Assembly (NCBI GenBank): GCA_030141605.1
Contig: JAQGDQ010000001.1
Coordinates: forward strand, 1,302,001 to 1,366,000
Reading direction: 5' to 3'
DNA: 64,000 nucleotides
DNA from: Tubiluchus corallicola
Taxonomy: Eukaryota; Priapulida; Priapulimorpha; Priapulimorphida; Tubiluchidae
In this document: in pieces, positions 4,588 through 64,000 of the stretch
Numbering within the stretch: position 1 is the first letter of the stretch
How the letters are laid out: each line of letters starts with the position of its first letter
Notes under the pieces: model-generated
The model's database searches: none
Seen by the model: the letters and a program-made list of their open reading frames with translations, nothing else
What the model was told of the DNA's origin: nothing
Position numbers and translations under genes: made by a program

Positions 4588-7500
4588 ATGAAATTCGCTG
4601 AACATCTTGGTGCACATATTACACCAGAATGGCATAAACAATACATACAGTATGAGGTAAGTTTAGTGAAATGTAGGGCTTAAAAACCTACTGATACTTA
4701 CCGACAACTACTAACTTCATCTAAATGACTATATAACCGGTGGCGATGGTAGTAGGGGCTGTGAGCTTGGACAAGCTTGTGTAATTACCGACGAGTACTA
4801 GCTTCATCTAAATGACAATACAATCGGTGGCAATGGTAGTAGGGGCTGTAAGCTAGGACAAGCTTGTGTTGCACACCCCCAATCTTCAAGAACTGCTCCA
4901 AGTGGCTCTTGAAAGCATTTACACTGGTAGAGTTCACTGCTTCCTCTGTTGACCGGTTCCAGGTATTAATAACCCTTTGGATAAAACTATACTTCCTAAG
5001 ATCAAGTCCTAAGAACAAGTCTAGACCTCTTCACTATTTTTTTTTGAAGTGACCTCTTGTTCTACTATCATCATTAACAGTAAAAAAAGTAATTACATTC
5101 CAGACCTTAGAGTCAATTCACAATTATAAAAACTTCATTTCAATCAGATCCGTTCTCCGTCGACGGTGTTCTAGGGGCATTAATCTGCATCTTTTCAGTT
5201 TTTGCTCATATGTTAACTCCGCAAAACTAGGACACTCAGTCAAGTTTATAACTCTCTCTTGTATGCCTTCAAGCAATCTAATATCTTTCACGATATAGGA
5301 TCTCCATGCCTGCACGCAGTAATCTAAGTATGGTCTAACAAAACTTTTGTACAGTTTTGCAATTACTTCTTTGTCTCTGTTAATAAAAGACCTTTTTATA
5401 ATGCCCAACATTCTGTTAGCCTTCCTGATTGCTTCCACACATTGACTGCTGGACTTTAGTGATTTATTTATTAATACTCCCAAATCTTTAATTTCAGTAG
5501 TACTGTCCAATCTCATCTCCCATAAATTAATCATAACGCGCATTATTAAAACGAAAATGGATTGCACACTTCTCCACATTAAATAGCATCTGCCAATCAA
5601 GTAGCCACTCATATATTTTGCTCAAGTCTTCTTGTATGGTAAAGGCTTCTTTAGAACTACCCACTGCTTTGAAAATCTTGGTGTCATCAGCATACTTTAG
5701 AATAGCACTGAAATTGTTCTCATCGATATCATTTATACAGATTAAAAACAAAACCGGTTTCGAGTACAGATCCTTGTGGAACTCCACCTAGTACTTCACC
5801 CCTTGAAGACATATTTCCATTTACAACCACACATTGTGTTCTTTCACACACATACTACTCGATCCATTTCAACACCCATCCATCAACACCATGCATTCTC
5901 TACTTCGAAAGCAGACGTTTGTGGGGAGCCTTATCAAATTCTTTGCTAAAATTTAAATAAATGGGCTGAGTGACTTTCCAAAAAATACAATATATTAGTA
6001 AGACATGATCTACCCTTTGTGAGACCATGCTGCGAACCCCCTAATAAGATTGTTATTTTTCAAATACTCAATTCATATAATACCTTTTGGAATATTTCCA
6101 GTGACTGTTGCCAAAATTAATGCAAAAAGATATCACAAACATCTTTTGCATTGTGGCCCAATTAGTCATTTATTTAAAATGAAAGTCACTCTTAGCCTTT
6201 TTAGACGAAAGTTTTTTCCTCTTCTGAGCTGCTTTCTGTGCAAATATGTAAATGTCTGTATGCATATTTCTGTAAATAGTTTTTTTACTTCACTGCGACT
6301 GGATAAACAGCTTGAGTTGCATAGCAAATATAAAATCATTCTATGAATGGCGTATACATGCAATACTAAAAATTGCAACTTTTGGTGTTTCGGCAACTAA
6401 AACATTTAATGCCAAAAACATAGCATCTTCGTAGCAAATGTTCTGCCCTAATGCTAAATTTTACATAACAATGCTGATACAAAACATAACTTAAAATCTG
6501 ACCATTTGTGTGGGAAACTCATCAAATTTCGCTTCATTGAAAGCTGGATTCAAATTATTACGTAAAGTTTCAGAACAAAAATTAACTCATCAAATTTTGC
6601 TTCATCGGGTACTACATTAAAATTATAGTTCCTATTTTCTTTTTTAGTGTATCAGAAGCAGCCATATTTAATTTGTTGACAGTGAAATAAAACACTTTCA
6701 GGTTAATTCTGATTAAAAATTGTGTTCGCACATATAGTGTACTGTAGCAGCAAAAAAAATTATTTGTTTTCAACTCTATTTCAGCTTTTATAATTTTTGA
6801 TGTTTAAAAATTTTCAGTGATTGCAATTTGGTGATCTTCATGTTTTTAAAATTTCCTTGTTCCTGGCCTGCAAATGATCATTGATGGATGATTTTACCTG
6901 GCTTTATTATAAGTTTGCTCGACTTCAATATTAATTTTGTTCACAACAAAAATATTTGTGCTGCAAAACAACAAAAGCCTAGCATATTTTTTACTAGTGA
7001 AATACTCGGGATCATTATTCATTAATTCAAAGTTACTGCACTTATCATAATTAAGGTGTTTACCATAATTAAGTCTTAACCACAGTGCACCCATTATTTT
7101 AGTTTGTTGTTGTTACAAATGCTGTATTGAATTTTCAGAGCAACAGCCATGAATTCTATAATGGCTTGATAAAAGACTAATGACAACACTGACATGTACT
7201 TCATGATCATCGTCTAATAAATATTTTGTGCGTAGCAAAAGCATACGAAATATATTTCTTCTGTAATTTAACAACCCAAGGATGTCACTTTTGCAGAAAA
7301 AACTATTTACCATAAAGCTGTTGATAAATCCATGACAGGATTGCGTTGCAGGTTTTTCTTACAGACTTAACTAGAACCAGATTTGTATGCTATGCAATTA
7401 ACATTTCCGACTTGTGGCGCCGTATGGTGCCTATTTATTTTTCAAGTGTTAAATGCATGTTAGATGAAACAGTTTCAATCCAATTTGCTTTGCCATTGTT

Positions 7501-55374: not shown

Positions 55375-56502
55375 TTAGTTATTTTCCCATTCCGTTGCTT
55401 CACTTATTTCAATAACATCAGGAACAGATGATTTTGAATGTTCCAGTGTTACTTCATTGCTATCTTTGATCCAAGTGATATTTCCGTCAGTTGTTCGAGG
55501 AACATTAGACGTCATTGTCGTTACTTCTGACATGTCGTTGTCCTTCTTCTTAAAGCACCTACACCAGGGCTTCGTCACTTTAATAAAAGCTTTTCTCATA
55601 TCTTTATTCTTCCAGGCGTATATAATCGGGTTAGCAAATGAACTTGAATAAAGCATTGCATACATGACATATCTAATCGATTTCGTGTTGTCTTCATAGA
55701 CTTCAAGGTTGATTAGAGGCATATAAACGTAGAACGGCAGCCAGCTCACAATAAACGCAAGAATAACGATGATGAAAACTTTCGCCAGTTTAAACTGTCT
55801 CTTGAAGTCGCTGGTGATATTCTGGGGAGATATGCGGCGAGTGTGAACCCAAGCAATGTGCATCAACCGTACATAAACAACAACCATGACTGTGACGTTG
55901 ACAAAGAAATGTATGCTAAGAAAGTATATTGCTCCTTTGCCTACGACCGATTCATATCCGCAACTACTTCCTGGAAACCAACGGTCATTTATTACAATAG
56001 AAAAGCTGATGACAAAAGTATAAAACCAACTAAAAAGTAGGATGATTTTTACCTTAGTTGGTGTTATAAGCTGTCTGTAGCGTAGTGGCCTGGTGATAGC
56101 TACGTACCTGTCCACAGTAACAAACAGTAAATTCACGTAAGAAATAATTGCTCCCATATTAGCGTAAAATTTGACAAAAAGGCAGACCTTCCTCTCCAAT
56201 CGCAGAAAGACCTGAGGAGGGAAACACAGTAGCATGTACGTTCCAAAGAAAAAATCACCAGCTGCTAGATTTCCCACAAACCAATGCGCCATTTCTTCAC
56301 GAAGTTTTTCTGTCCTCAGAACTGCCACGATCACAAGAGCGTTTGAGAACAAAACTACGATAGCTATGACCATTACGACGGACGTCATGATAGCGGCAAC
56401 CATGGGATGAACACCACCCAAGGTAATACTAGAAGAAGACTCATTCAGACTGAGCCCAGAAGTAGTGTTATTAGCCTTCGCAAAGAATTCTTCAATAGCC
56501 AT
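55375..56502 (-). CDS. Orphan class A (rhodopsin-like) GPCR, single exon
   Basis: A 375-residue seven-TM receptor of the plasma membrane. The N-terminus has two N-glycosylation sequons (Asn12, Asn20). TM1 carries SNALVIV (Asn54), TM2 NLAAGD (Asp83), and the TM3/loop-2 disulfide pair is probably Cys107 and Cys181. DRYVAI is at 131-136, TM6 has SWLPF (253-257) and TM7 NPIIYAW (291-297), followed by helix 8 (KNKDMRKAF) and a Ser/Thr-rich tail with a Cys pair (WCRC) suited to palmitoylation. TM5 (residues about 194-213) lacks the usual proline, and TM6 has Ser where most receptors have Cys before the Trp. Missing TM5 proline and the NPIIYA style recall the melanocortin/adenosine-like (MECA) cluster, but ligand and subfamily cannot be assigned. 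One intact coding exon, alone on the minus strand. Confidence 0.88.
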   Translation of the reverse strand: MAIEEFFAKANNTTSGLSLNESSSSITLGGVHPMVAAIMTSVVMVIAIVVLFSNALVIVAVLRTEKLREEMAHWFVGNLAAGDFFFGTYMLLCFPPQVFLRLERKVCLFVKFYANMGAIISYVNLLFVTVDRYVAITRPLRYRQLITPTKVKIILLFSWFYTFVISFSIVINDRWFPGSSCGYESVVGKGAIYFLSIHFFVNVTVMVVVYVRLMHIAWVHTRRISPQNITSDFKRQFKLAKVFIIVILAFIVSWLPFYVYMPLINLEVYEDNTKSIRYVMYAMLYSSSFANPIIYAWKNKDMRKAFIKVTKPWCRCFKKKDNDMSEVTTMTSNVPRTTDGNITWIKDSNEVTLEHSKSSVPDVIEISEATEWENN

Positions 56503-58559
56503 AAAAATATTTCTTTACTTTTCAGTTAATCTGTTTTCGGAAAATTTTGCCGCCAAAACTTGCTGCAGTTTATGCACAATTTTTTGCGCGGAATCCTGTC
56601 GTATTTGTCGCAAGTATTCTTTCATCCACAATTAAATGCTGTATATTTGTGCCATTAAAGAAATAACAAATAAAACTCTGTTAAGTGTTATCACTTTATA
56701 ATGCTGCTGTTCATAAAACTTGTCTCATATGCAACATAAAAATAATTTCTATGCCCAGCACGTAACCAAATATGTTTTCAACTTTTCAAGCAGCAGGTAG
56801 AAACACTAGTGGCCTGAAGAAAGATAAATCTGTTCCTCAGTTGAAAGAGCATGAATGCATGACGCAAAGAAAATCTTCATCTATCTATAATTTAATGTGA
56901 ACACAACGAGCCAGGTTTTTCGTTTATTTAGTCAACAAAGCACACAAATTAACCTGCTGGGCAAAGCCAAACTGCAAGTTATATTGTTAAATCAATAAGA
57001 ACCATTCTATCAGAAAGCGCATGTTCTTCGAGTTTTCTTCAGAGGAAATTCGTTCCAAAGTTCTTGCAATGATTTCAGAAAAATTATAAGAAATTGACCA
57101 TGAAATGAGTTTTGCTGAATTTAATTTTTCCCCAATTTCTATAGCGTTAGTAATCTTTAAAAGATAATTATATATTTGTTTGTGTTCTGAAGTCGCTTTT
57201 GAATTATGAAGATCAGTTGGAAAGTATATTATATAGTTTGATTAGGAAGGACTAATGCCAAATCCATTAAACCAGGTAATATGGTAAAATGGGTCAACGT
57301 TAGTTTTAGTAAAAGCCTGTCTGCAGCTCATTATCGGACACTAGCCTGTGCACGACATCAGCCCATTTGACATGCCACGATGTGTTCACTCTCAACTTCT
57401 TAAAAGTAACAGCATTTTTCTATGTATTGGTGCTTGATAGATAATTTCGAAGATACGAAATTTTCGCAAAGTGGGCGGCACAATTTAGGCTTACAACAAC
57501 ATCAATAACTAGTCTTTGTAGAAAAGTTTAATTAAGTGCGCTAGCTTAATATGCTAGTCACATTACTAGATGTCGAAGTTTTAGCTTTGTCAATACATCA
57601 AAAGTTGACTGTTAAAATTAAGAAGCCTACGTCCTTAAAAATAAAAGCCACAATTTTATCGACTTAACTATCCTCATTCGCTGCCACCTTTTACTGAAGT
57701 GTCTGTGAAGTGCTGAACGCGGTCTCATATAAGAAAATTCAAGAAATGCAAGTAGTTATCAAAAATGGATAACAACAAATTTTTCACTAATGTTCTACTT
57801 AAGGAAATTTGCATCATTTGAAAGCAGAAATTAACTTCTCTGAAGTAATAAGTGATTGATAAACCATTGCATTCCTTGAAATTTGAGGTCGGATAATCAT
57901 TGGTATCTGCTAAAGATGCAATGAGCGCAAAAATAAAACTACAGAATAATAAATAAAGTAAGGGGTGCTTCTTGCTCCTACGACCCCACAATAGATGATT
58001 CCCACGAATCGTGGGTTTTTGTTTTCGTTTTTTTCAAACCCCCAAAATATACATTACGACACAGTACAAAACTCGAGTGGTAAAAAATCCCTCGACTTAT
58101 GGGGCTTTGTTGTATTTTTAAATACTCGAAGTTTTGCCATTGTTTCCTGTCAGACTCAGTCATTTGCCAGAAATGAATAGACATGAATTTCGTTAAGTGT
58201 CGTCAATTTTAAATTCCAGCGCCGCTGCTATATGAAATCTGAATAACTATCTACAGCCGACTCAATTTTGTCGAGCCCTGAACCGCTGCCGTTTTATAGG
58301 GACCATGTTCATTTATGAAAAAACATACATATTTCCATATAAATGCATTCATACCAGCCTACCTGGTATCAGCATGGCCAAACTTGGGAAGCTATATCTC
58401 CTGAATCCCCTTTGGAATCCTCTTCAGAAATGTATATGGTACATCACCAAAACTTTGTCCTTGCGTTACGCAAGACTGAAACACCACTTATTAATGTGGC
58501 GGCAGTGGCAATAGTTCCCATCGTATTCAACGGTGTGCCACACAGCCGCCACCGCTGCA
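56503..58559. other. GPCR upstream region and flank of the retrotransposon
   Basis: No gene is established. Two overlapping plus-strand frames at 58305-58591 (69 and 82 codons) have mildly coding-like composition (a stretch with NVAAVAIVPIVFNGV) but no recognised domain. GPCR promoter elements were not identified. Confidence 0.35.
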
Positions 58560-59626
58560 GGGCTGCCACGCTACGGTCCTTTTGCGCGTAGAGGTAGGTC
58601 AATATTGAGGAATTTTATTGTGGCAAACGCGCAGTAGTGGCGAACTGAAACACTTGTTATAGTGATAACCAATGTATTAACAATGTAGAGAAATTGCGTT
58701 GGCGAACTATACACTAGTTGACGATACGTGATAGTGGGTAATCGTAGTAGTGGCGAATCTTAGTAGTGGTGAAACGTAATAGTAGCGAAGTGAAACTTAT
58801 TAATTCACTACCGCATTGAATCACAATGTTTGCTCTACCATTAAAAATTTTCAGTGATGAACTTTGGAAGTGTGGTAGTTGCTAAATTGTGTAACTAAAA
58901 TTTTACTTATGTGTATGTAACATTTGAACCTAATATGCCCATATTAGGCATTAAGTAATTATCGTTACCTGAGTAAAACAATTAAATCCACATCGTTACT
59001 GCAACGAATCAGTCTAATTTGGCTGACAAATAACATAGTAACATATGAACATTGTAACACTTCTTGCGCTCACGTGACATCCTGCATACAAGGCGAGGTC
59101 TCCTCCAGTACTTGGGTAGGACCGGTCCTTCCTCACGCACGTTGTGGTAATGCAGCAGAACGCGGTCTACGCAGCTTTCGCTCCAACTCGCCGGACACGT
59201 AGTAGAGTCTCTGGAGATCGGATAATGAGAAGATCATCTCCTCCGAGTTCCCACACAGAACGGAAGCGATTTAGATCATCGAACGTGAAGTCAAAGGTGA
59301 CAATATCTTTATCCAACGAGAAGGTGATTAGGCTATGTAACGAATGCCTAATTTAACAAATGTCTCTCAGCAGTTGCGTAACTGACGAGGTTTCACCAAC
59401 AGAACAGGAACAGCGTTCACCAATGAATAGGAAGAACATAGTAATGAACAAACCATCCATTTCTTGTTTAATCATCGTAAAAGAAACCATGATATAGTTA
59501 TATCTGAGCATTTTTCAACACGGCCATTCTACTCTCTCTCCGCCACGTAGACCAATACCGTTAAGATTAATACTTAAAGTGAAAAATAATTAGTTGCAGT
59601 AATCTGCTGGATGGGGGACCATCACA
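58560..59626 (-). repeat. Probable 3' LTR and polypurine tract
   Basis: On the minus strand AGGGGACGG (59630-59638) looks like the polypurine tract, followed after a few bases by TGTGATGG at 59626 as a likely LTR start. A polyadenylation signal AATAAA occurs near 58616. Several TAGTGGCGAA-like units lie in 58630-58795. The other LTR end is not defined because the 5' LTR is out of view; 58560 is a guess. The 290 bases between the RNase H stop and this tract hold no gene. Confidence 0.4.
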
Positions 59627-59930
59627 GAGCCGTCCCCTAAAGAATATTAAATATTTCAAGATCATGATTACGAAACTTAACATTTTTCACTGCCAAGATA
59701 AGATAACGTCATACATATACAATGACAAACATGAATAGAAGTGATGACTTTGTAGCTAACTAAGCTATTACATATTTGATCATTTGCTAACTAAGCAAAT
59801 TGATCATTACATCATACACCACGAATATATCATCAAACAAATATATGATATATAACACCAAAAAAAACTTGTTTAAGCATTGAAAAAGTACTACAACTTG
59901 TTGGGCATTTCATACTCTGATGCTTTATAT

Positions 59931-62006
59931 TTATTTCCGGCTTAAAGCATCAGCAACAAGGTTTTGAGCGCCAGCAATATGCTCAATTGTAAAGCAATAT
60001 TCTGAAAGAATGAGTGCCCAGTGACACAAACGTCTGTTATTCTTACGCATTTTTCTGAGCGCAAGCAAACTTCTCTGATCAGTGCGCAATGTAAACTGGC
60101 GGCCTTCTAAATAGTAATTTAACTTCTGCACGCAAAATACAACACTCAGAAGTTCACATTCAACTACAGAATATCTGACTTCGGTGGGTGTAAGCCTACG
60201 ACTGACATATGTGATAGGCACCTCTCCTAAGCCATCCATACGATCTTGGGTGAGTGCACCACCAATGCCCACAAAGCTGGCATCTGTAGTTAGGATAAAT
60301 GGTTTGGAATAATCAGGGGAATGTAGAACACTGTCAGAAGTCAAAGCATTCTGAAGGGTAAGAAAGCTCTTCTCACAAGCTTCTGACCAAGGTACTTGGG
60401 TGGGTGCATATTTTTCTGTTAAAGAATACAGAGGTGCAGCGATAGTGCTGAAGTTCTCGATAAAACGTCTGTAGAAGCCCACCATTCCTAGGAATCTACG
60501 TACTTGAGTTTTTGTTTGTGGCCGTGGAAAATCACATATTTGTTGTAGCTTCTTCTGTTGAGGACGTAGGCGGTTCTTGCCTATAATGTATCCAAGAAAA
60601 TTTGCCTCACGCAGAGCAAAATGGCACTTAAGTGGCTTAACAGTCAGGCCTGCCTTACGAATGCAAGTAAGCGTGCCATCTACATGTTCCAAGTGATGTG
60701 ACCAATCTCGCGACTTGATTAACACATCATCGATGTAACCTCGTGAAGAATCTCTTACGTTTTCTAAAACGCGGTCCATAAGTGACTGTGCAGTACTGGC
60801 AGCATTCAGTAAGCCGAAAGGCATGACGATGAACTCGAACTTACCAAAATCAGTTACAAAAGCTGATATGGGTTGTGATTCAGGGGCCAGTTCGATTTGC
60901 CAGTATGCCTTGGACAAATCAAGGGTCGATATCCAAGCGATGTTGTGAAGATCATCGATTATATCGTCCGGGCGAGGCATTGGATATGGGTTGAAAATTG
61001 TACGAGCATTTAACTGTCGGTAGTCAATCGTTGGTCGCCATTCACCATGCGGTTTTGGCACGAAGTGTAGAGGCGAGGCATACTCGGACTCTGATCGTCG
61101 TATTACCCCTAAATTTAGCATCTCTTGAAGTTCGCGCCAAACTATCTCTTTGCGGGATTGCGGCAGTCGATAGGGATGTAGCTTGACTGGTGTGGCATCC
61201 TTTAGGTGAATGTGGTGGCGAACTACAGTAGTGCGACCTGGTAAATCCGTAAACATTTCCGGATACTTGTTAAAAATAGCACGAAGTTCTGTGCGTTGTT
61301 GCTCTGATAGATCGTCTGATAAAGTGACATCATTTACTGACTGTGTGGCAATGGCCGTTGGCAAAAAAGCATAATCTGGAAGACCTCCAGGTTCCACTAT
61401 TCCTTTTCCGAGGTTTGTTATTGCCAAATCATACATGTCATCTTCCTCAACATCTTCATCAACGCCATATGCTAGAGCTTCACTCAAGCTTGTTCCATCA
61501 TCGTCCAAGCTCATTGCTAGAAGGATCAGGGACTCCTTTCTGTCCACATATTGCTTAAGCTTATTGATATGAACAATTCTAGTGTCCTTCCGTCTACCCT
61601 TCTTGCCAAAACAAACTTTATAAGTCCAATCGGATACTTTGTCTGTTATTTGATATGGGCCTCTCCATCCTGGTTGCATCTTTTTGCCTTTCCTCATCCT
61701 CTGAACCATCACTTTATCGCCAACCTCGAAACTTCTTTCTTTTGACACGCGATCATACCAGCGTTTCTGGGATAATTTGGCTTCCAGAAGCGATTTATGA
61801 GCGTCTTCTGTCGATGTCTCTAATGCATTAATAACTCGTGCAACGTACTCATCGACATCTTCAAGGCTTGGCGGTTTGGAACAACCCCATCGCTCTTTAA
61901 GCATGGTCAACGGACCACGTACTGGGTAGCCAAAGACAAGTTTATTTTGGGCTGTACCCTGTGGAATCCTGTGGAACTTCACGGTATGAGAAAAGCACAT
62001 AATCAA
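59931..62006 (-). CDS. Retrotransposon Pol 3' part: integrase C-terminus, reverse transcriptase, RNase H
   Basis: A 691-residue open frame. Residues about 20-155 hold the end of integrase with a GPY/F module (GWRGPY at 113-118, VHINKLKQY at 145-153). A linker with an acidic patch follows, then RT (about 280-480) with LDLSKAYWQ (Asp363), VMPFGLLNA and the catalytic YIDD at 424-427, and RNase H with TDASFVGIGGAL (Asp575), the ELL glutamate (618), TDQRSLL and ADALSR at the very end. The first roughly 20 codons are out-of-frame sequence upstream of the frameshift, so the annotated ATG is not a real start. There are no stops inside RT or RNase H. Confidence 0.9.
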   Translation of the reverse strand: MIMCFSHTVKFHRIPQGTAQNKLVFGYPVRGPLTMLKERWGCSKPPSLEDVDEYVARVINALETSTEDAHKSLLEAKLSQKRWYDRVSKERSFEVGDKVMVQRMRKGKKMQPGWRGPYQITDKVSDWTYKVCFGKKGRRKDTRIVHINKLKQYVDRKESLILLAMSLDDDGTSLSEALAYGVDEDVEEDDMYDLAITNLGKGIVEPGGLPDYAFLPTAIATQSVNDVTLSDDLSEQQRTELRAIFNKYPEMFTDLPGRTTVVRHHIHLKDATPVKLHPYRLPQSRKEIVWRELQEMLNLGVIRRSESEYASPLHFVPKPHGEWRPTIDYRQLNARTIFNPYPMPRPDDIIDDLHNIAWISTLDLSKAYWQIELAPESQPISAFVTDFGKFEFIVMPFGLLNAASTAQSLMDRVLENVRDSSRGYIDDVLIKSRDWSHHLEHVDGTLTCIRKAGLTVKPLKCHFALREANFLGYIIGKNRLRPQQKKLQQICDFPRPQTKTQVRRFLGMVGFYRRFIENFSTIAAPLYSLTEKYAPTQVPWSEACEKSFLTLQNALTSDSVLHSPDYSKPFILTTDASFVGIGGALTQDRMDGLGEVPITYVSRRLTPTEVRYSVVECELLSVVFCVQKLNYYLEGRQFTLRTDQRSLLALRKMRKNNRRLCHWALILSEYCFTIEHIAGAQNLVADALSRK

Positions 62007-62610
62007 TTGCGAGATCCCAGGGAAGAGACGAGTAATCTTGTGTTAGGCGTAAAATAGACTTCTTTAGCGTGTCATTATATTTTTCGACGAGTCCATTCGT
62101 TGAAGGTGAGTATGGACTAGTGAAAATGCCCTTGACACCGAGCTGATCCTCCAGCTCTTTCGTCAAGTTTGAAGTGAACTGGGTGCCACAGTCCGTTAAT
62201 ATTTGGCGAGGGATGCCGTATCTACAACAAAATTTCAGCAGTGCATTTAACACGGTGACAGTCTGTATATCTACTAGCGGATATGCGTCCGGATAACGTG
62301 TTGCATGGTCCACTATTACTAAAGCCCAACGATTACCAGAAGGTGTACGATCAAGCGGCCCAATTAAGTCCATCCCTATGGTACGAAATGCTGTGTCTAC
62401 AATAGGTAACGGTTTCAAAGGGGCTCTGTCGGCTCGGCGTGAACGCGCTGTTTTCTGGCACGTCAGACAGGAACGACAATATTCCCTTACGGAACGTTTA
62501 AGACGAGGCCATATATATTCTTGAAGAATTCTGTGAGTTGTCTTGTTTATGCCCAAGTGTCCGGCTAATTTACTTCCATGCGCAAGTTGTAAAACTTCCT
62601 TGCGGCGAAA
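61942..62610 (-). CDS. Retrotransposon integrase core (broken at both ends)
   Basis: The frame continues that of the Gag-protease ORF after a single TAA at 62611-62613. It holds the HHCC zinc finger (AHGSKLAGHLG, then CRSCLTC) and the DDE core. Counting from the Met at 62556, these are Asp63 in GMDLIGPL, Asp122 in TDCGTQF and Glu158 in NGLVEKYND, with the D,D35E spacing. It ends at 61942 in a stop created by a one-base length difference in an A run near 61952; the same protein carries on in the next frame. The breaks look like decay, not programmed recoding, since both fall within the integrase region. Confidence 0.88.
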   Translation of the reverse strand, partial: FRRKEVLQLAHGSKLAGHLGINKTTHRILQEYIWPRLKRSVREYCRSCLTCQKTARSRRADRAPLKPLPIVDTAFRTIGMDLIGPLDRTPSGNRWALVIVDHATRYPDAYPLVDIQTVTVLNALLKFCCRYGIPRQILTDCGTQFTSNLTKELEDQLGVKGIFTSPYSPSTNGLVEKYNDTLKKSILRLTQDYSSLPWDLAIDYVLFSYREVPQDSTGYSPK

Positions 62611-64000
62611 TTAGGGTAGTACAAGCAGCTCCTTAGGTGCTTGGTGCTGTTTTCCTTTAGATAAATAGAATAACGCACCTCCGCGCAAAAAGTAACCTTT
62701 GCCTAATTTATATGCCTCTTCTTCTGTGCACGCGTTATCAATAATATTACGTATAGTGACATCCTCTTTTTGCTCTTCGCTGATCTGTTCAATTGTGACG
62801 TCAAGAAGCTGTTTCTGATCTTCAGCAGGCGAGTCCTTAACCGCTAGGCCATCGTTGGATGCTAACGAATCAAATACTTGCTGTTGTAACAGCGTGTCCT
62901 GCTTGACTTGAGCTTCTAGCTTGTCAGCCTGCGAGCGAGTTATTGCATAAATTGACTTCACATCTGTCGCTGATTGAGGCTTTTGTTTTGGTTGTGATTT
63001 ACTTGCAGCATTCTTCTTTGGTTTAACGCTGTATTTACCCGCTTCTTTATTAAATTTTGAAGCCTTTTCAGCATTCTCAGGGAATGGCTTTAATGCTGAC
63101 TCGTAATTATTTCCAAGTAAAAAGTCAACAGGTAAATTATTGCTTACGCTTACAGTCAGGATACCAAAGAAGCCAGGCCCAATAATTTCAACCTCCGCTA
63201 ATTTACTTTGCCTCATATCACCGCACGCGCATACGAACTTGTGTCGGAGTTCATTTAAATACTGATTAGCGCGAACGAATTTAGCATGTAACATGCTTAC
63301 ACCAGCTCCAGTGTCTCTTTGACCTTTTACCACGTAACCGTTAATTTTTGCTGTAAAACCAACGGGTTGTTTTCGGCCAGGTACATGATGCCAATCATCA
63401 TCATTATTTGGCATCTTTATTTCCGGTGTGTTAAACAATTGTTTGCCAGGTCTACCGAATAAAGCAGCATTAGCAGGTCGCATGACGTGTTCACTTCCCA
63501 AACGCGATCGACATTCGCTGCGCCTATGACCAGGCTTTCCACATGCGTAACAATGCATTTTGGTTGCAAGATTCTGGCTCATATTTGTATTGCTCGCGCC
63601 TCCACCTTGCGACGTGGCAACATTTGGTTTACCAGTCTTTTTAAATGAATAAACATTTTTCCCAGGAAGGGAAGTGATTTGTCTCGCTGCGACAAATTGA
63701 TCTGCCCGTTGGGCCATCTTCTCAATTGTCCTGATGCTATCCGTCCTTAACCAAGTGGCCAAATCGTGTGGCATCAAACTAAGCGCTTGTTCAATTACTA
63801 CTGCTTCATTAACAGTCTCAAAAGTCTCAGCTTGTATGGCTTCAAGATAGTCGCGCCAACTATTATCCAAGCGTCTGAAAAGCTGACGATAACTTTCATT
63901 CTTAAGCTTTATTGTACCGCGGAATCTCTCCAGGTAAACGTCAGTGCTTAGAATATACGCGCCAAGCAAAGCTTTGCGAACGTATGTGTAGTTCCGCATC
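62611..64000 (-). CDS. Retrotransposon Gag and protease (5' partial)
   Basis: An open frame of 462 residues that reaches the window edge. Residues about 1-110 resemble the C-terminal part of a SCAN-like Gag capsid (YRQLFRRLDNSWRDYLEA, QADQFVAAR-like end). One CCHC zinc knuckle, CYACGKPGHRRSEC, is at 150-163. A retropepsin-type protease follows with the active-site triad D-T-G at 229-231 (RDTGAGVS) and FLLGNNY near 293. The last part (DVTIRNIID, YFLRGGALFYL) is the region that normally precedes the integrase zinc finger, so Gag and Pol appear to share one frame here. Ends in TAA at 62611-62613. Confidence 0.87.
   Translation of the reverse strand, partial: MRNYTYVRKALLGAYILSTDVYLERFRGTIKLKNESYRQLFRRLDNSWRDYLEAIQAETFETVNEAVVIEQALSLMPHDLATWLRTDSIRTIEKMAQRADQFVAARQITSLPGKNVYSFKKTGKPNVATSQGGGASNTNMSQNLATKMHCYACGKPGHRRSECRSRLGSEHVMRPANAALFGRPGKQLFNTPEIKMPNNDDDWHHVPGRKQPVGFTAKINGYVVKGQRDTGAGVSMLHAKFVRANQYLNELRHKFVCACGDMRQSKLAEVEIIGPGFFGILTVSVSNNLPVDFLLGNNYESALKPFPENAEKASKFNKEAGKYSVKPKKNAASKSQPKQKPQSATDVKSIYAITRSQADKLEAQVKQDTLLQQQVFDSLASNDGLAVKDSPAEDQKQLLDVTIEQISEEQKEDVTIRNIIDNACTEEEAYKLGKGYFLRGGALFYLSKGKQHQAPKELLVLP

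Follow-up and report, generated by a model that had tools for sequence, protein, structure and literature searches.

A probable Gmr1-like Ty3/gypsy retrotransposon family with integrase ahead of reverse transcriptase and a SCAN-type capsid

We found gypsy-type retrotransposon proteins in a Ty1/copia-like order on the minus strand of the analyzed window (the whole stretch of 64,000 nucleotides, contig C1874 positions 1302001–1366000 within a 343.5-Mb assembly), with the integrase (IN) ahead of the reverse transcriptase (RT). We identify the element as a copy of a Gmr1-like Ty3/gypsy LTR retrotransposon family, at a probability of roughly 0.9. Gmr1-like is the best name because the element has both the integrase-first order and a SCAN-type capsid domain; the probable membership of the Gmr1 clade rests on these two characters. 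The integrase-first order is a lineage trait of a described group, since many relatives in the same genome carry it.

Pfam matches on three minus-strand frames gave the domain order SCAN, CCHC zinc knuckle, protease, integrase, RT, and RNase H (Table 1). The open stretches of the window copy were 63999–62611, 62610–61942, and 62042–59931. The protease match (E 3e-4) lay under Pfam's curated cut-off. The catalytic triad of the integrase was assigned to D81, D140, and E176 in the numbering of the integrase frame. The top PDB match of the RT-RNase H region was the RT of yeast Ty3 (4ol8 and 7q5b, E 1e-81), which is the closest solved structure, and the copia-type RT model RVT_2 had no match in the window frames using Pfam, where only RVT_1 was matched. 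The domain series, the Ty3-closest RT, and the lack of a match to the copia RT model indicate that the unusual arrangement is real. In Ty3, RT precedes IN, unlike in the window element. The first-pass annotation had reported an integrase with HHCC, D,D35E, and GPY/F motifs before RT and RNase H on this strand and had assigned the RT, the RNase H, and the GPY/F module to the Ty3/gypsy type; the Pfam order, the models matched, and the motif reading bear this out. A scan of the window RT against the viral contigs of IMG/VR gave no match.

Table 1. Features of the integrase-first element (window numbering unless a contig is given).
Feature	Position	Strand	Evidence
SCAN-type domain of Gag capsid	63682..63942	-	Pfam SCAN, E 4e-9
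CCHC zinc knuckle of Gag	63508..63555	-	Pfam and motif
Aspartyl protease	63106..63354	-	Pfam gag-asp_proteas; DTGA motif at 63315
Integrase zinc domain (H2C2/HHCC)	62446..62604	-	Pfam Integrase_H2C2, E 6e-20
Integrase core, D,D35E	62104..62373	-	Pfam rve, E 5e-13
Integrase C-terminal GPY/F module	61554..61661	-	Pfam Integrase_p58_C, E 4e-8; GPY motif
Reverse transcriptase	60582..61061	-	Pfam RVT_1, E 2e-29; YIDD at 60737
RNase H domain, gypsy type	59997..60314	-	Pfam RT_RNaseH, E 5e-31; frame end 59931
In-frame TAA stop directly ahead of integrase	62611..62613	-	Frame reading
Frameshift, integrase core vs GPY/F-RT-RNase H frame	within 61945..62042	-	Frame reading
3' LTR, 711 bp, TG...CA	58916..59626	-	Pairing with 5' LTR
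5' LTR	C1874:1367407-1368117, past window end	-	2 differences in 711 vs 3' LTR
5-bp target-site duplication GTGTA (plus strand)	58911..58915		Exact repeat beyond far LTR
Polypurine-tract-like AGGGGACGGCTC	59627..59638	-	Directly upstream of 3' LTR; role suggested by position

The full copy with both LTRs, which the first-pass annotation had proposed to retrieve, was recovered from the contig. In window numbering the whole element, about 7.2 kb long, extends from 58916 to 66117, and the start of gag, the primer site, and the 5' LTR are located past the window end, on contig C1874 up to base 1368117. The interval first assigned to the element, 59931–64000, thus holds the coding part within the window, and the LTRs, the primer site, and the gag start fall outside it. 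The sequence TGGTGTCAGAAGT, which starts one base past the 5' LTR, is the primer site of the window copy; its complementarity to a tRNA-Leu(CAG) present in the same genome extends over 13 nt and covers the tRNA 3' end together with CCA. The primer sites of the relatives L026 and L027 are of the same kind, with a longer match stretch in L027, and L028 and L029 carry TGGTGGCAGCGGTGGGA at this site, which presumably fits another tRNA-Leu. The LTR pair, the GTGTA duplication, the tRNA-Leu primer site, and the tract AGGGGACGGCTC indicate that the element is an ordinary LTR-retrotransposon insertion. At five further places (L062, L065, L066, L067, and L069) we observed a tRNA-Leu 3' part ending in CCA where a complete tRNA gene was not found. 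Because CCA is not encoded by nuclear tRNA genes, these pieces may be primer-site or strong-stop remnants of reverse transcription, or tRNA-derived repeats.

The first two open stretches of the window copy share one frame and the third lies in another, which places a frameshift near the integrase end. With this frameshift and the TAA before the integrase, the window copy as assembled is broken in Pol and would no longer yield an intact Pol. Judging from its LTR pair, in which only 2 of 711 sites differ, the window copy is a recent insertion. The LTR pairs of the integrase-first relatives were 94.9–99.5% identical, and copies with unbroken frames are present elsewhere in the genome. The nearest copies of the window LTR elsewhere in the genome (94–96% identity) are about 358 bp longer, the extra segment falling between positions 70 and 72 of the window LTR. 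Because this segment is missing from both LTRs of the window copy, we infer that the deletion predates the last reverse transcription of this copy or arose in that round.

To find relatives in the assembly, the window RT was used as the query and gave 105 matches, a number that is a lower bound on the copies and is nevertheless inflated by redundant contigs; 87 of them had 49% identity or more. IN was located upstream of RT on the same strand in all 22 loci of this set (at least 49%) in which IN could be read, the window included. The same order was found in L070 (contig C1958), whose RT identity is 41% or less. Counting the window and L070, all 23 integrase-first places read had the same order, at RT identities to the window of 99% down to about 39%. 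In regards to L030, L031, and L071, whose RT identity is also 41% or less, the order was the classic one, RT and then IN. Contigs C1787, C2138, and C2264, and likewise C1805, C2084, and C2252, carry the same element copies at corresponding positions, which indicates partial redundancy of the assembly (haplotigs) and inflated copy counts.

The Pfam order of the window was repeated in L022 to L029 (all eight loci). Intact relatives, which the first-pass annotation had suggested looking for, were found: each of the eight relatives checked has a single Gag-Pol frame of 1,629–1,657 aa ending after RNase H, with Gag (SCAN-type capsid and CCHC) followed by Pol (protease, integrase, RT, and RNase H). 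A transcript from the LTR would be translated into a single Gag-Pol polyprotein, which would be cut by its own protease. Reverse transcription, probably primed by tRNA-Leu, would occur within particles, and integration of the mobile copy would leave the 5-bp duplication.

Two findings go beyond the first-pass annotation, namely the broken state of the window copy and the SCAN-type domain in Gag. Pfam matched SCAN in the Gag of the window copy, of L022 to L029, and of the deep lineage L070 (E 5e-12). The match was weak in the L023/L024/L025 subfamily (E 7e-4 to 2e-3; 18–20 bits against a curated cut-off of 27). SCAN was not matched by Pfam in the conventional Gags tested, those of L030 and L031, which instead matched Retrotrans_gag and Ty3_capsid, respectively. 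Furthermore, the window Gag domain gave a sequence match (E 2e-4) to 4bhx, the SCAN domain of PEG3. Published reviews trace SCAN back to the capsid part of Gag in Gmr1-like gypsy elements (PMC4592553, PMC3424704, PMC3406341). Vertebrate SCAN genes such as PEG3 and ZNF24 are a direct sequence match to the domain described here, but they are domesticated host genes, whereas the present domain belongs to a retrotransposon Gag.

Two unrooted trees were built from elements of this genome alone. In the RT-RNase H tree, L030, L031, L071, L072, L073, and L074 split from all others at 100/99; the order was read as conventional in three of the six rows on this side. L075–L079 were placed in this tree by their RT-RNase H sequence only. 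The tree of the integrase, a separate domain, separated integrase-first from conventional elements at 97/96, and L070 fell on the integrase-first side. Both trees are compatible with an old branch on which the order changed once. Together with the order in all integrase-first copies read and the SCAN domain in Gag, they support the Gmr1-like arrangement proposed in the first-pass annotation.

Convergence, in which gypsy elements without kinship to Gmr1 would have acquired the integrase-first order independently, is improbable. The deep divergence of the integrase-first family within this genome, and trees limited to elements of this genome, leave some room for it, but a SCAN-type capsid, which the literature gives as a mark of Gmr1-like Gag, accompanies the order in all integrase-first copies tested, down to the deepest lineage, whereas the conventional Gags tested lack it. 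A Ty1/copia element with a captured gypsy-type RT or IN is still less probable and was rejected: the order protease-IN-RT-RNase H is indeed that of Ty1/copia, but each of the RT, the RNase H, and the GPY/F end is of gypsy type, RVT_2 is unmatched, and the RT tree agrees with the IN tree. Local rearrangement of the pol of a conventional gypsy element in the window copy alone, for which nothing speaks except that the order is unusual for gypsy elements, is excluded for practical purposes by the congruent RT and integrase trees and by relatives of the same order at widely differing RT identities on many unlinked contigs, many of them with one unbroken frame.

The Gmr1-like element of the window shares the order protease-IN-RT-RNase H with gypsy-type domains with Gmr1 of cod (Gadus morhua) and the Gmr1 clade (PMC2582038, PMC6238403). 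The SCAN-like capsid is also common to Gmr1 of cod (PMC4592553), a likeness by description to an element of another animal host. Gmr1-like elements have been reported in crustaceans (GyRex4, Gychoro2, GyMaja1, and GyLiva4, termed the first in protostomes; PMC3587641), in the annelid Lamellibrachia (LGF3; PMC8220671), and in frogs (PMC4131045), and those of cod and the tunicate Ciona are cited in PMC8220671. Gmr1 has been counted among the clades found in several phyla (PMC8556966). The earlier suggestion that this copy may extend the range of the group therefore carries little weight; the element is an ordinary further example of an uncommon but already described group, and nothing is overturned. 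GyRex4, Gychoro2, GyMaja1, GyLiva4, and LGF3 are Gmr1-related by RT and have protostome hosts; compared with these, the integrase-first lineages of the present genome are many and divergent. It adds a diverse, apparently still young Gmr1-like set from another animal genome. A tentative and rather doubtful extension is that Gmr1-like elements have so far gone unreported in the phylum of the host and that, with several deeply split lineages, the order and the SCAN-type capsid are old and shared across bilaterian animals. That order and SCAN go together even in deeply split lineages agrees with a single ancient change of gene order. It also lends support to the published derivation of vertebrate SCAN genes from a Gmr1-like Gag.

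Three Msx-like homeodomains (L042, L046, and L047), two of them nearly identical, were observed on two contigs. Further homeodomain matches in the genome have signatures that we take to be those of Hox1 to Hox5 and Antp/Lox-type genes, and there is presumably also one gene with a UbdA-like tail and one of Abd-B/Post2 type. This homeodomain set points to a bilaterian host, probably a protostome. Bryozoans and phoronids are without Scr (PMC10675955) and are thus improbable hosts, provided that the Scr assignment is right. Searches of the genome for the arthropod cuticle family PF00379 and for mollusc haemocyanin PF14830 gave no match; both were run without a positive control and are weak. COX1 sought in the assembly also gave no match. 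Elsewhere in the window, a minus-strand frame at 5127–5621 resembles the final portion of a LINE reverse transcriptase and has no Pfam match. An intronless frame of 379 aa at 55378–56514 on the minus strand encodes a rhodopsin-family GPCR (7tm_1, E 5e-36), and a frame of 315 aa at 343–1287 on the plus strand encodes a kynurenine formamidase-like alpha/beta hydrolase (Abhydrolase_3).
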